NCBI GenBank assembly: GCA_019135865.1
Contig: JAGVVD010000056.1
Location: forward strand, 1 to 38,618
DNA from: Elusimicrobiota bacterium
GTDB lineage: Bacteria > Elusimicrobiota > Elusimicrobia > Elusimicrobiales > UBA9959
Reading direction: 5' to 3'
DNA length: 38,618 bases
This document shows, piece after piece, positions 6,434 to 38,458 of this stretch. Every line of letters starts with the position of its first letter. Within the stretch, counting starts at the first letter, position 1. Under the pieces are notes generated by a model. It did no database searches and was not told the DNA's origin. It saw nothing but the letters and a program-made list of their open reading frames with translations. The position numbers and the translations under genes were made by a program.

Positions 6434-7797
6434 CCACCGCCCGCGCCCATGAGCCGGGGGGGATGAGGGAGCTGGTCTCCACCGCCTACCCGCTGATCCT
6501 CTCCACCGCCTCCTCGACGGTGATGCAGTTCGTCAACCGCGTCTTCCTGGCCCATTACGGCCCCGACGAGCTGGCGGCCTGCGTGCCCGCCGGCCTGCTG
6601 TCCTTCGTCTTCGCCTGTTTCTTCGTCGGTACGGCCTCCTACACCAACGCCTTCGTCTCGCAGTACCACGGCAGAGGGAAGTTCGCCAGCGTCTCGGTGG
6701 CGGTCTGGCAGGGCGTCTGGCTGGCCATAGCCGCCGGGCTGGGACTGCTGGCCCTGACGCCGCTCGGCTACTGGATGATCTCCGCCTCCGGCCACCCGCC
6801 GGCCGTGATAGAGCTGGAGAAGAAGTATTTCCTGATACTCAATTCCACCGGCATCATCTTCCTCTGCAACGTAGCCCTGTCCTCGTTCTTCACCGGCCGC
6901 GGGCTGACCAAGGTCCCGATGGCCGTGAACATGGCCGGCAACGCGCTGTGCGTGCTGCTCTCCTGGACGCTGATCTTCGGCAAAGGGCCGCTGCCGGAGC
7001 TGGGCATCGCGGGCGCGGCCTGGGCCATGGCGGGCGGGCAGCTGCTGATGCTGGCCCTCTACCTTAAACTCTCGCTCTCGCCGTACAACCGCGCCCGCTA
7101 CCGCACCAGCCGGCTCGTGACCTTCCACCGCTCGCTGTTCCTGCGGCTGATAAAGTACGGCGCCCCCAACGGCGTCGGCTTCTTCCTCGACATAGCGGCC
7201 TTCGCCGCGTTCATCTTCATCGTCGGCGCGATGGACAAGGTCTCGCTGGCGGCCAGCAACATCATCGCCTCCATAAACCAGCTGGCCTTCATGCCGATGA
7301 TAGGTCTCGGCATGGCCGCGCTGACGCTGGTCGGCAGGTACATAGGGATGCGCAAGCCGGACCTGTCGGTGAGGGTCACCGCGAACGCGGCGCGGCTCGC
7401 CGCCCTCTACGGCGCCGCGCTGGGAGCGCTGTTCTTCGCCGTCCCGGGCTTCTTCGTGAACATCTTCGGCTCGGGACAGGAGGCGGCCTACTCGGCTATA
7501 CTCGCCGAGAGCCGGCCGGTGATGCGCGTGCTGGCGGTCTTCATCTTCTTCGACGCGATAGGAATAGTCTACGCCGACGCGCTGCGCGGGGCCGGGGACA
7601 CGCGGTTCCAGATGCTGGGCGCCAGCGCCGCGGCGTGGATCCTGTTCGTGCCGGGGATCTGGTACATCACGCACGGCGGCGGCGAACTGATCCACGCCTG
7701 GGCCTGGGCCGCCTTCTACATCTTCCTGCTCGCGCTGTTCTTCCGGCTGCGCTGGCGCTCCGGCCTCTGGCGCCGCATCGACATCCTTAAGAAATAA
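6430..7797 (+). CDS. MATE family multidrug/toxin exporter
   Basis: This 455-aa polytopic membrane protein has about twelve hydrophobic segments in two six-helix bundles, as is usual for MATE antiporters that export cationic compounds using H+ or Na+. Typical stretches are VSTAYPLILSTASSTVMQFV at the N-terminus, FLAHYGPDELAA, IGLGMAALTLVGRYIG in the second half and YADALRGAGDTRFQM (the GAGDT motif). It is the last gene of the dtd-peptidase-lnt operon, coupled by ATGA to lnt. The coupling ion and substrate cannot be read from the sequence. No terminator with a T-run follows; the palindromic region from 7809 begins only 12 bases after the stop. Confidence 0.9.
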   Translation: MTTARAHEPGGMRELVSTAYPLILSTASSTVMQFVNRVFLAHYGPDELAACVPAGLLSFVFACFFVGTASYTNAFVSQYHGRGKFASVSVAVWQGVWLAIAAGLGLLALTPLGYWMISASGHPPAVIELEKKYFLILNSTGIIFLCNVALSSFFTGRGLTKVPMAVNMAGNALCVLLSWTLIFGKGPLPELGIAGAAWAMAGGQLLMLALYLKLSLSPYNRARYRTSRLVTFHRSLFLRLIKYGAPNGVGFFLDIAAFAAFIFIVGAMDKVSLAASNIIASINQLAFMPMIGLGMAALTLVGRYIGMRKPDLSVRVTANAARLAALYGAALGALFFAVPGFFVNIFGSGQEAAYSAILAESRPVMRVLAVFIFFDAIGIVYADALRGAGDTRFQMLGASAAAWILFVPGIWYITHGGGELIHAWAWAAFYIFLLALFFRLRWRSGLWRRIDILKK

Positions 7798-7808
7798 GGA
7801 ATAACCAT

Positions 7809-8005
7809 GCCGGGGGCATGGCGTGCCCTCACCTCGCAAAAACAGGGTCGCGCACACCGTGCGCGCCCTTCCCGTTCTCGCCGCTCGCGCTCGTCCGCGT
7901 CTCCGCTTCCTCAGGATAGTGATTCCACCGGCCAGCTGCGACGCGGACTCCGTAAGCGAGCGGCTCCGAAGGGTTTTGCTCCGGTGAGGGCACGCCTCCC
8001 CCGGC
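7809..8005 (+). repeat. Long imperfect palindrome 1 of a composite intergenic element
   Basis: Nested inverted arms span this 197-bp block. GCCGGGGG (7809-7816) pairs with 7998-8005; GCGTGCCCTCACC (7821-7833) pairs perfectly with GGTGAGGGCACGC (7983-7995); GCCGCTCGC (7880-7888) pairs with 7956-7964; GTCCGCGTC (7893-7901) pairs with 7940-7948. GCGCAC/GTGCGC around 7850-7863 makes a side hairpin. With the second palindrome it fills the 471-base gene-free gap between the MATE and methyltransferase genes. Short open frames here show no family features. Confidence 0.7.
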
Positions 8006-8017
8006 TGTCTCCTTATG
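7961..8017 (+). repeat. 57-bp intergenic repeat, copy A
   Basis: The block begins with CGGCTCCG, continues with a GGTTTT(T)-CTCCG core and a C-rich stretch, and ends in TGTCTCCTTATG. Copy B at 38403-38458 shares both ends and the core in the same order and orientation, with about 70-75% identity by eye. In both copies a GC-rich hairpin built on GCTCGCG precedes it. It overlaps the right arm of palindrome 1. Confidence 0.65.
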
Positions 8018-8033
8018 GGACGCTAAACGGGGC

Positions 8034-8235
8034 GGCTTCCCCCGGGGACACGCGGCGAGTCACATGAGGAAGTTTTTCCCCGAGCGCAGTGAGGGCACCG
8101 GCACTGCCGGACGACCAAGAATGTCTGAGGCCCGAGGCGCTATGCGCCCGGGCCGAGTTCTTGGTCGGCCGAACGAAGCGACGGTGTATCCCGGAAAAAC
8201 TGAACCGTGACGAGCGTGTGTCCCCGGGGGAAGCC
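8034..8235 (+). repeat. Long imperfect palindrome 2 of the composite element
   Basis: A perfect 18-bp inverted repeat (GGCTTCCCCCGGGGACAC at 8034-8051, partner at 8218-8235) encloses further arms: AGTTTTTCC (8071-8079) with 8193-8201, CGACCAAGAA (8112-8121) with 8158-8167, and GGCCCG (8129-8134) with 8149-8154. The whole 202 bp could fold into one long stem with bulges. No transposase is nearby. A structured RNA, a MITE-like element or an unusual protein-binding site are all possible. Confidence 0.75.
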
Positions 8236-8268
8236 CAACCATCCCGATTTTGCTAATATTGAGGTCCA

Positions 8269-9429
8269 ATGAAGCTGCCGAGAGTGAAACTGTCCAGCGC
8301 GCCGGCCGGCCCAAACGCCTTCCGCCGCATGATAGAGTCCGCCGACCGCGAACTGCGCCCCGGCGACCTGGCAGCCGTCTACGACCGCAACGGCCAGCCC
8401 TACGGCCTCGGCCTCTTCAACCCGCGCAGCCAGATAGCCCTGCGCATCTTCACCCGCGACAACCCCGAGACCTTCGACCTCGACGCCTGGCTGGCCGCGC
8501 GCGTGGGCCGCGCCGTGGAGTTCCGCCGCGAAGTGCTGCGCCTGCCGCGGACCACCGACGCGTACCGCATGGTCCACGATTACGGCGACGGCCTGCCCGG
8601 CCTGACGGCGGACATCTACGGGAACCACATAGTCCTGGAGTTCTACTCGCTGGGCATGTTCAGGATGGCCTCCTCGATAGAGAAGGCCTTCCGCCTCCAT
8701 TACCCGGACGCCGTCTTCCATCACCGGGCCAGCTCCTTCACCCAGGAGATGGAGGGCTTCGAGATAAAGCCGGAGATGATGCGCCCCCGCGTGAAGATAA
8801 AGGAGAACGGCGTCCTGTTCGAGGTCAGCCCGTCGGGCGGCTACAAGACCGGCTTCTTCTGCGACCAGCGCGAGAACCGCCTGCTGGCCGCCTCTTTCGC
8901 CGCCGGCCGCAGCGTGGTGGACCTCTGCGCCTATACCGGCGGCTTCGGCGTCTACGCCGCCAAGCTCGGCGGCGCGAAGGACGCGACCTGCGTCGAGCTG
9001 GACCCAGAGGCCTCGGCCCAGTGCAAGCGCAACGCCAATCTCAACAAGGTAAAGGTCGATTCCGTCTGCGTGGACGCCTTCGCCTACCTGCGCCAGATGC
9101 AGGCCAACAAGAGGAAGTTCGGCCTGGTCGTGCTGGACCCGTACAAGGTGGTCTCCTCGCGCGAGGAGAAGGAGCGGGGCCTCTACAAGTACAAGGATTT
9201 CAACCGCCTCGCGATGGCCCTGGCCGAAGAAGGAGCGGTGTTCGTCACCTGCTCGTGCAGCGGCATGGTCTCGATGCAGGAGTTCTCGCAGGTCGTGCGC
9301 GCCGCCGCGGCCTCCTCGGGCAGGCGTCTCCAGGTCTTCAAGAAGACCGGCGCGGGCTCCGACCACCCGGTCGCGGCCGACTACCCGGAAGGGGAATATC
9401 TCAAGGCGATCTGGGCCAGGGTCTATTGA
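8269..9429 (+). CDS. Class I SAM-dependent rRNA methyltransferase, RlmI-like
   Basis: This 386-aa cytoplasmic enzyme resembles the RlmI/YccW group that makes 5-methylcytosine in 23S rRNA. Residues about 1-75 look like the PUA RNA-binding domain (LRPGDLAAVYDRNGQPYGLGLF). A linking EEHD-like domain follows, with DGLPGLTADIYGNHIVLEFYS. The Rossmann part has KTGFFCDQREN (193-203), SAM-binding VVDLCAYTGGFGVYAAKLGG (216-235), and a CSCS motif (328-331) with the catalytic Cys. Motif IV reads DPYK (290-293) where DPPxF is usual. The ATG at 8269 has GAGG 4 bases upstream and follows palindrome 2 by 33 bases. It is followed after 10 bases by the HD-GYP gene. The target nucleotide is inferred from family only. 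Confidence 0.88.
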   Translation: MKLPRVKLSSAPAGPNAFRRMIESADRELRPGDLAAVYDRNGQPYGLGLFNPRSQIALRIFTRDNPETFDLDAWLAARVGRAVEFRREVLRLPRTTDAYRMVHDYGDGLPGLTADIYGNHIVLEFYSLGMFRMASSIEKAFRLHYPDAVFHHRASSFTQEMEGFEIKPEMMRPRVKIKENGVLFEVSPSGGYKTGFFCDQRENRLLAASFAAGRSVVDLCAYTGGFGVYAAKLGGAKDATCVELDPEASAQCKRNANLNKVKVDSVCVDAFAYLRQMQANKRKFGLVVLDPYKVVSSREEKERGLYKYKDFNRLAMALAEEGAVFVTCSCSGMVSMQEFSQVVRAAAASSGRRLQVFKKTGAGSDHPVAADYPEGEYLKAIWARVY

Positions 9430-17687: not shown

Positions 17688-17761
17688 GCGGGCGTAGTTC
17701 AATGGTAGAACGAGAGCTTCCCAAGCTTTAGACGTGGGTTCGATTCCCATCGCCCGCTCCA
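17688..17761 (+). tRNA. tRNA-Gly, anticodon CCC
   Basis: A complete cloverleaf can be drawn: acceptor GCGGGCG with CGCCCGC, D-arm GTTC/GAAC, anticodon stem AGAGC/GCTTT with loop TTCCCAA (anticodon CCC, reading GGG), variable AGACG-type segment, and T-arm with TTCGATT. The discriminator is T and the 3' CCA is encoded. A CBM48-like gene follows 31 bases later and is probably on the same transcript. Confidence 0.96.
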
Positions 17762-37915: not shown

Positions 37916-38371
37916 ATGAAAATAGCCATCGCCAGCGACCACGCGGGCTTCCCGCTCAAGGCGGCCCTCATCCACAAGCTCCGTATGCTCGGCCACGAGA
38001 TCTCCGACCTGGGCACCAGTTCGCCCAACGAGTCCGTCGACTATCCAGACTTCGCCGCCGCCGCGGCCCGCGCGGTGGCCGGCGGCCAGGCCCGCCGCGG
38101 CATAGTGGTCTGCGGCAGCGGCGTGGGCGCCTGCGTGGCCGCCAACAAGTTCAAGGGCGTGCGCGCCGGCCTCTGCCACGACACCTACTCGGCCCACCAG
38201 GGCGTGGAGCACGACGACATCAACGTCCTCTGCCTGGGCGCCCGCGTCATAGGCGAGAGCCTGGCGCTCGAGGTGGCCTCGGCCTTCCTGGGCGCGGAGT
38301 TCAGCAACGAGGAACGCCACGTCCGCCGCCTCGACAAGGTCAAAAAGTTCGAAGAAGGCCTCTCTTCCTGA
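37916..38371 (+). CDS. rpiB: Ribose-5-phosphate isomerase B family
   Basis: This 151-aa cytoplasmic sugar isomerase of the RpiB/LacAB fold interconverts ribose 5-phosphate and ribulose 5-phosphate in the pentose phosphate pathway. Visible signatures are [13 protein letters not shown] at the start, the [10 protein letters not shown] motif, [19 protein letters not shown] (catalytic Cys and phosphate loop), [20 protein letters not shown] followed by [10 protein letters not shown]. Length and order are complete. AGGAGA lies 6 bases upstream of ATG 37916. It ends the long MoxR/Bat gene cluster. A galactose- or allose-type substrate is possible in the family but less likely. Confidence 0.94.
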
Positions 38372-38382
38372 CAGCGGCCCCC

Positions 38383-38458
38383 GCTCGCGCTTCGCGAGCT
38401 CGCGGCTCCGGACGGTTTTTCTCCGCGAATCCGCCGCCACCCCCATTGTCTCCTTATG
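38383..38458 (+). repeat. Intergenic repeat, copy B, with its hairpin
   Basis: A 7-bp hairpin (GCTCGCG at 38383-38389 with CGCGAGC at 38393-38399) leads into a 56-bp block (38403-38458) that matches copy A at 7961-8017: CGGCTCCG, a GGTTTTT-CTCCG core, a C-rich stretch, and TGTCTCCTTATG. The hairpin also matches GCCGCTCGC/GCGAGCGGC of copy A, but with a loop of 3 instead of about 67 bases. Confidence 0.65.

Follow-up and report, generated by a model that had tools for sequence, protein, structure and literature searches.

The window, i.e., the whole stretch of 38,618 nucleotides analysed here, contains a gap that opens behind a MATE-family gene (last position 7797) and closes at 8269, where a gene for an rlmI-like methyltransferase starts (both names were assigned by reading the translations). 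This gap is filled by two palindromic units, A and B (Table 1). The sequence-only reading had placed two successive long inverted structures in this gene-free gap, and both are present in the sequence, the start of the first being moved from 7809 to 7798, right after the stop codon TAA (7795–7797) of the MATE-family gene. The perfect 18-bp inverted repeat reported to bound the second structure lies inside arms of 21 nt (8034–8054/8215–8235, 95% complementary), while the reported arms of the first are found as 14 nt of 100% complementarity, together with an outer arm of 7–8 bp, CCGGGGG/CCCCCGG, read directly from the sequence. Folding of 7798–8250 gives z = -10.7 against 100 shuffles.

Table 1. 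Features of the two palindromic units and of the distant relative of A in the window.
Feature	Position	Strand	Remarks
Unit A, long form, branched imperfect palindrome	7798..8017	+	ends GGAATAAC... / ...CTGTCTCCTTATG
Outer arm of A	7810..7816	+	pairs with 7998–8004; sequence reading; helix 1
Variable arm of A	7820..7833	+	pairs with 7983–7996; helix 2, covaries most strongly
Conserved core of A	7836..7979	+	GCAAAA...TTTTGC stem, three-way junction, two hairpin branches
Hairpin branch CGCGCACACCGTGCGCG	7849..7865	+	central CACACCGTG nearly invariant
Optional central domain of A	7892..7953	+	limits approximate; missing in short-form copies
Right arms of A	7983..8004	+	
A–B linker	8018..8033	+	in composites, lies within the nested palindrome
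Unit B, second palindromic family	8034..8235	+	conserved core, copy-specific complementary arms
Truncated A relative after rpiB	38380..38458	+	left half lost

The distant partial copy that had been noticed beyond rpiB is real, with about 75% identity to A (49 identities, 11 mismatches, and 5 gap columns), and both copies end, as claimed, in the fixed sequence TGTCTCCTTATG. It is recovered independently by a covariance model of A (38281–38458, 43.6 bits, E = 1.5e-7), and the rpiB site of the genome G002 carries a full-length A. The recurrence thus stands, but the repeat has far more than the two copies first noticed. In agreement with the earlier failure to match a known family, an Rfam search returned nothing for the region beyond chance-level matches at gathering and permissive thresholds; its one hit in the window is a tRNA gene at 17688–17758.

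The genome itself is an Elusimicrobiota MAG assembly of 2.95 Mb in 59 contigs, in which BLAST finds 72 pieces of A and 50 of B. The covariance model, which rests on 30 copies of A, gives 59 matches in this genome, 57 of them at E ≤ 1e-3 and 48 at 89 bits or more; the truncated copy beyond rpiB is one of the weaker matches. The proposal of a dispersed element family is therefore borne out, with some 50 or more copies of A and about 25 long copies of B. The variable internal loops that had been suggested are borne out as well. A has long and short forms, which differ by the optional central domain, about 7891 being joined to about 7954 in the short form. Several subfamilies of A can be told apart, whose arm sequences differ, yet pair within each copy.

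Beyond this genome, BLAST with A is positive in 43 of 150 related genomes, all within the same family, and the covariance model, run over 295 genomes of the phylum, is positive in 40. Of these, 38 belong to that family and 2 to other families of the class, where the elements are clearly related to A but diverged. The many copies in the genome and its relatives clearly exclude a pair of chance matches. The conserved core is common to several genera of the family, and the copy number within this one family ranges from none to dozens per genome. A pattern scan of named genomes led, among the matches listed, to Elusimicrobia, Elusimicrobiota, or Elusimicrobiales MAGs wherever a group was named, some bins being titled merely "bacterium". 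All genomes carrying A are metagenome bins.

The placement of A was read relative to genes called by a simple codon-usage gene caller. The gaps holding A are tandem in 34 cases, convergent in 9, and divergent in none (0/43) in the own genome, and 54, 14, and 1 (1/69), respectively, in the named genomes, i.e., a single divergent context among 112, as compared to 40 of 238 for the other gaps at the same loci (176 tandem, 22 convergent, 40 divergent). The orientation of A to the genes is even (18:16 in the own genome and 28:26 in the named genomes). In merged composites, the distance to the stop codon is often 0–12 nt.

The pairing in A was examined in two alignments. In A1, composed of 30 copies with 35 predicted pairs, 96.3% of the pair cells are formed, whereas sliding the partner by 1–3 columns lowers this value to 37–52%. 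In A2, composed of 93 copies from other genomes that were aligned to the A1 structure by the model, a procedure that favours the structure, the corresponding values are 95.2% and 31–50%. Compensatory changes on both sides occur in 29 of the 35 pairs of A2, and the covariation score is 0.365, compared to 0.092 in shuffles; the effect is far beyond the controls despite the model-guided alignment. The many intergenic copies with compensatory changes that had been named as support for the family are thus found, and a lack of conserved pairing in relatives is excluded. In helix 2 of A, double changes are seen in 6 of 7 pairs. The unpaired loops CCA/GTC and AAC/TAA are conserved as well.

Structured RNAs keep G-U pairs but not A-C mismatches. 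At the pairs of A2 that are at least 80% Watson–Crick, the exceptions among about 2,700 cells are 34 G-T and 32 A-C. Because the copies lie in both orientations to the genes, the exceptions were also split by strand, which gives G-T:A-C ratios of 18:18 for sense and 25:10 for antisense copies, so that an excess of G-U is absent from the transcript-sense copies. The tRNA stems at the same loci, used as a control although ARAGORN itself selects pairs, have 23 G-U and 0 A-C. Since G-T and A-C are equally rare and the sense strand, unlike that of the tRNAs, has no G-U excess, the complementarity is probably maintained at the DNA level and not at the RNA level. The route is probably either hairpin-templated correction or selection acting on the DNA in its hairpin or cruciform form; correction alone is insufficient because the internal loops are conserved. 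An early strand argument from A1 (57 G-T vs 9 A-C) was dropped, because RNAalifold had picked the pairs on that strand and the independent set A2 is without it.

The site between the MATE-family and rlmI-like genes is occupied in all four species of the genus, the elements beginning alike after the stop codon, and their closing end is common to three of the four and lost in the own genome. The interiors differ: A and B in the own genome, a short element in G002, and, in G001 and G003, a B that is reversed or has another arrangement. The G003 element is a composite in which an end and a deleted A are followed by B and an inverted A, i.e., A-B-A'. The A–B linker is found in other composites too, and has an inverted counterpart in G003. 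About two-thirds of 20 sampled element sites of a sister species match element-bearing loci in the own genome, and in one orthologous pair between the two the element is inverted. In the genus g4, four species carry an element behind sdhB; its arms differ between them, and in one case the core is inverted. For one copy of G001, the corresponding site in the own genome (G000) is largely empty.

The most unusual feature of the family is the decoupling of core and arms. In the genome GWA2_61_42, four copies with different arms are identical in the core (about 92 nt), and over all pairs of copies the mean identity is 0.89 for the cores and 0.48 for the outer arms (0.42 for random 10-mers). The arms nevertheless fit within each copy, the median complementarity score being 14 for a copy's own arms and 4 for arms swapped between copies. 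The copies of genus g4 likewise share the core and have no common ends. Such decoupling can arise in old copies from fast, complementarity-only evolution of the arms combined with gene conversion of the core, or it can mean that the arms belong to the site. Further palindromes are nested within some copies. The A copy at locus L268 is interrupted at about 605–676 within the element by a palindromic insert, GGGGACGCTGCACGATA...TATCGTGTAGCGTCCCC, and those at L277, L295, and L316 (isolate UBA11697) carry in the terminal loop of the core an extra insert with GTGTCGCT..GCTCCAC, apparently another small nested palindrome.

No transposase lies nearby, as the sequence-only reading had stated, and no recurring mobile gene was seen beside the copies, the recurrent neighbours being only housekeeping orthologues at shared sites. 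At the 32 best-scoring Y1-transposase loci, taken with their flanks, the A model has no match, and several genomes have many A copies and no Y1 gene. On the basis of this neighbourhood and co-occurrence, a Y1/RAYT enzyme was rejected as the present mobiliser. Y1 genes do occur in the own genome. One, RAYT-like (L062, G000:C44:11460-11792), has the palindrome GGGGACACAATACCTATTTCGGTCGAAATAGGTATTGTGTCCCC on both sides and represents a separate REP-like system. A second (L061, G000:C41:4450-4773) is flanked by the inverted repeat GGGGACGCTGATTACTAAATG and has GGGACGCTGA in common with the A–B linker of some composites, possibly by chance.

A separate observation concerns unit B. On five contigs of the own genome, the same 99 nt abut a B palindrome at one fixed position (L035:1-101, L036:1-101, L039:16-114, and the ends of L034 and L037), the other side of the junction being probably L058:1-104, while the body of the sequence is absent from the bin. 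The 99 nt probably belong to an insertion sequence that collapsed in the assembly and that targets the B stem. With one break point in B, and one common sequence beyond it, at all five contig ends, the B palindromes themselves appear to be an insertion target.

The sequence-only reading had offered a MITE, a REP/BIME-like element, or a structured RNA as possible identities; each fits partly and none fully. A functional RNA at mRNA 3' ends, such as a terminator, stabiliser, or processing signal that would act irrespective of orientation owing to the symmetry of the hairpin, is possible though rather unlikely. It would account for the many copies that start a few nucleotides past a stop codon, the avoidance of divergent gaps, the strong covariation with conserved internal loops, and the occupation of the same gene ends in diverged species. 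However, the copies are oriented at random to transcription although their conserved loops are strand-specific, the exceptions to pairing are DNA-like, with G-U not favoured in the transcript-sense copies as it is in the tRNAs, and an Rfam match is absent. Two small terminator-like matches lie inside A on the minus strand, but beyond the arms, T-runs after the stem (at least 6 T in 8 nt) are not clearly enriched, at 15 vs 7 of 176 ends, and an intrinsic terminator was rejected on this ground. Selectively maintained host sites for chromosome organisation or protein binding, related to the nucleoid, gyrase, or replication, would agree with the conservation of sites between species and of the core, but are highly improbable in view of copy numbers from none to dozens within one family and of the strand bias relative to GC skew, which is not significant overall (40:30); the ratio is 9:1 in the 10 loci with the strongest skew, which are too few.

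A MITE of a DDE transposon is suggested by the imperfect terminal repeats TAAGGAATAAC.../...GTCTCCTTA and by composite copies that terminate reproducibly in GGAATAACTATTCCGGGGGCATG and its inverse. This origin is very unlikely, because such repeats, imperfect in genus g1, are absent as shared sequence in g4, where the core alone is shared, and because no transposase was seen between A ends. The shared target duplication that had been proposed as support did not emerge either: none is reproducible in the flanks inspected by eye, the one candidate, ATAAGTCA/TATAGTCA at the site filled in G001 and largely empty in G000, being imperfect. REP/BIME elements work in a similar way, but the present ones are 5–10 times larger, have different ends, and show no RAYT link. 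A more specific variant, in which A is a giant branched relative of the CGTC-tagged REP superfamily, with (C/T)GTC as tag and CCA as tail on the two sides of the inner stem and the core replacing the REP loop, is improbable. In the A2 subfamily, and in further families too, the inner stem does have conserved unpaired CTGTC and GCCA beside it, and CGTC repeats too are without a linked transposase and may lie inside larger palindromes (PMC3733652, which does not mention Elusimicrobia). On the other hand, CGTC REPs have stems of 8–9 bp and loops of 4–5 nt, whereas the loop here has at least 90 nt and is branched, most g4 copies have the motifs in reversed order (CCA left, GTC right), and such short motifs may coincide.

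The explanation that we consider best, with a confidence that is evenly balanced, is that A and B, which together make up this composite region, are non-autonomous palindromic DNA elements from large dispersed Elusimicrobiota families. The families are BIME-like in organisation, apparently undescribed, and, by the tests made, outside the RAYT–REP system. The elements would spread, and still be exchanged, via a folded single-stranded or cruciform hairpin, the core of which would be recognised by a protein acting in trans. The complementarity of the arms may be kept by hairpin-templated repair or by selection on the hairpin, the cores may be homogenised among copies through gene conversion, and the small harm that an insertion would do at gene 3' ends may be the reason why the elements persist there. 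Against this explanation stand the lack of a mobilising gene at the loci searched and of a clear target duplication. Moreover, diverged species have long kept elements at the same gene ends, which would fit a host function just as well, and conserved unpaired loops are also expected of a functional RNA. A bolder and improbable version is a structure-directed exchange, in which the core would serve as a cassette for insertion, inversion, or swapping between docking stems that are complementary within each copy but specific to it; a putative Elusimicrobiota enzyme would recognise these stems by their shape rather than their sequence.

The phylum, known chiefly through metagenomes, would thus have a large family of palindromic repeats, and no paper on such repeats in Elusimicrobia was found. 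Identical cores with unrelated complementary arms, and interiors inverted or replaced at sites that are fixed between species, are features that the literature consulted does not report for REP, BIME, or MITE elements. The equal rarity of G-T and A-C provides a simple test to separate DNA palindromes from structured RNAs; covariation alone is not proof of RNA. If the arms regenerate on movement, hairpin-directed transposition or hairpin-templated repair becomes directly testable.

Among the known systems, CGTC-tagged REPs resemble A in the unpaired (C/T)GTC and CCA motifs around a stem, present in part of the A copies, and in lacking a linked transposase, and differ in having a short loop in place of the 90-nt branched core and in the motif order of many copies. 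Integron attC sites are similar to A in that structure is conserved above arm sequence and extrahelical bases are conserved, but A has no cassettes and its variable stem is outermost; the attC reading was rejected, as the boxes RYYYAAC/GTTRRRY occur in 0 of 88 A copies. ERIC, YPAL, and Correia/NEMIS elements are imperfect palindromes of 100–200 nt with dozens of mostly intergenic copies, in which the arm sequence is typically common to the copies. A differs in that copies with an identical core can have unrelated arms. The BIME/REPIN elements, finally, are like A and B dispersed intergenic palindromes at gene ends that avoid divergent gaps, and form mosaic composites of inverted units with linkers, as in A-B-A'. 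Their units are of 20–40 nt, whereas the units here measure 140–220 nt and have a branched core (about 92 nt); further differences are the absence of the GTAG tag at the ends, the copy-specific arms, and the lack of a linked RAYT.
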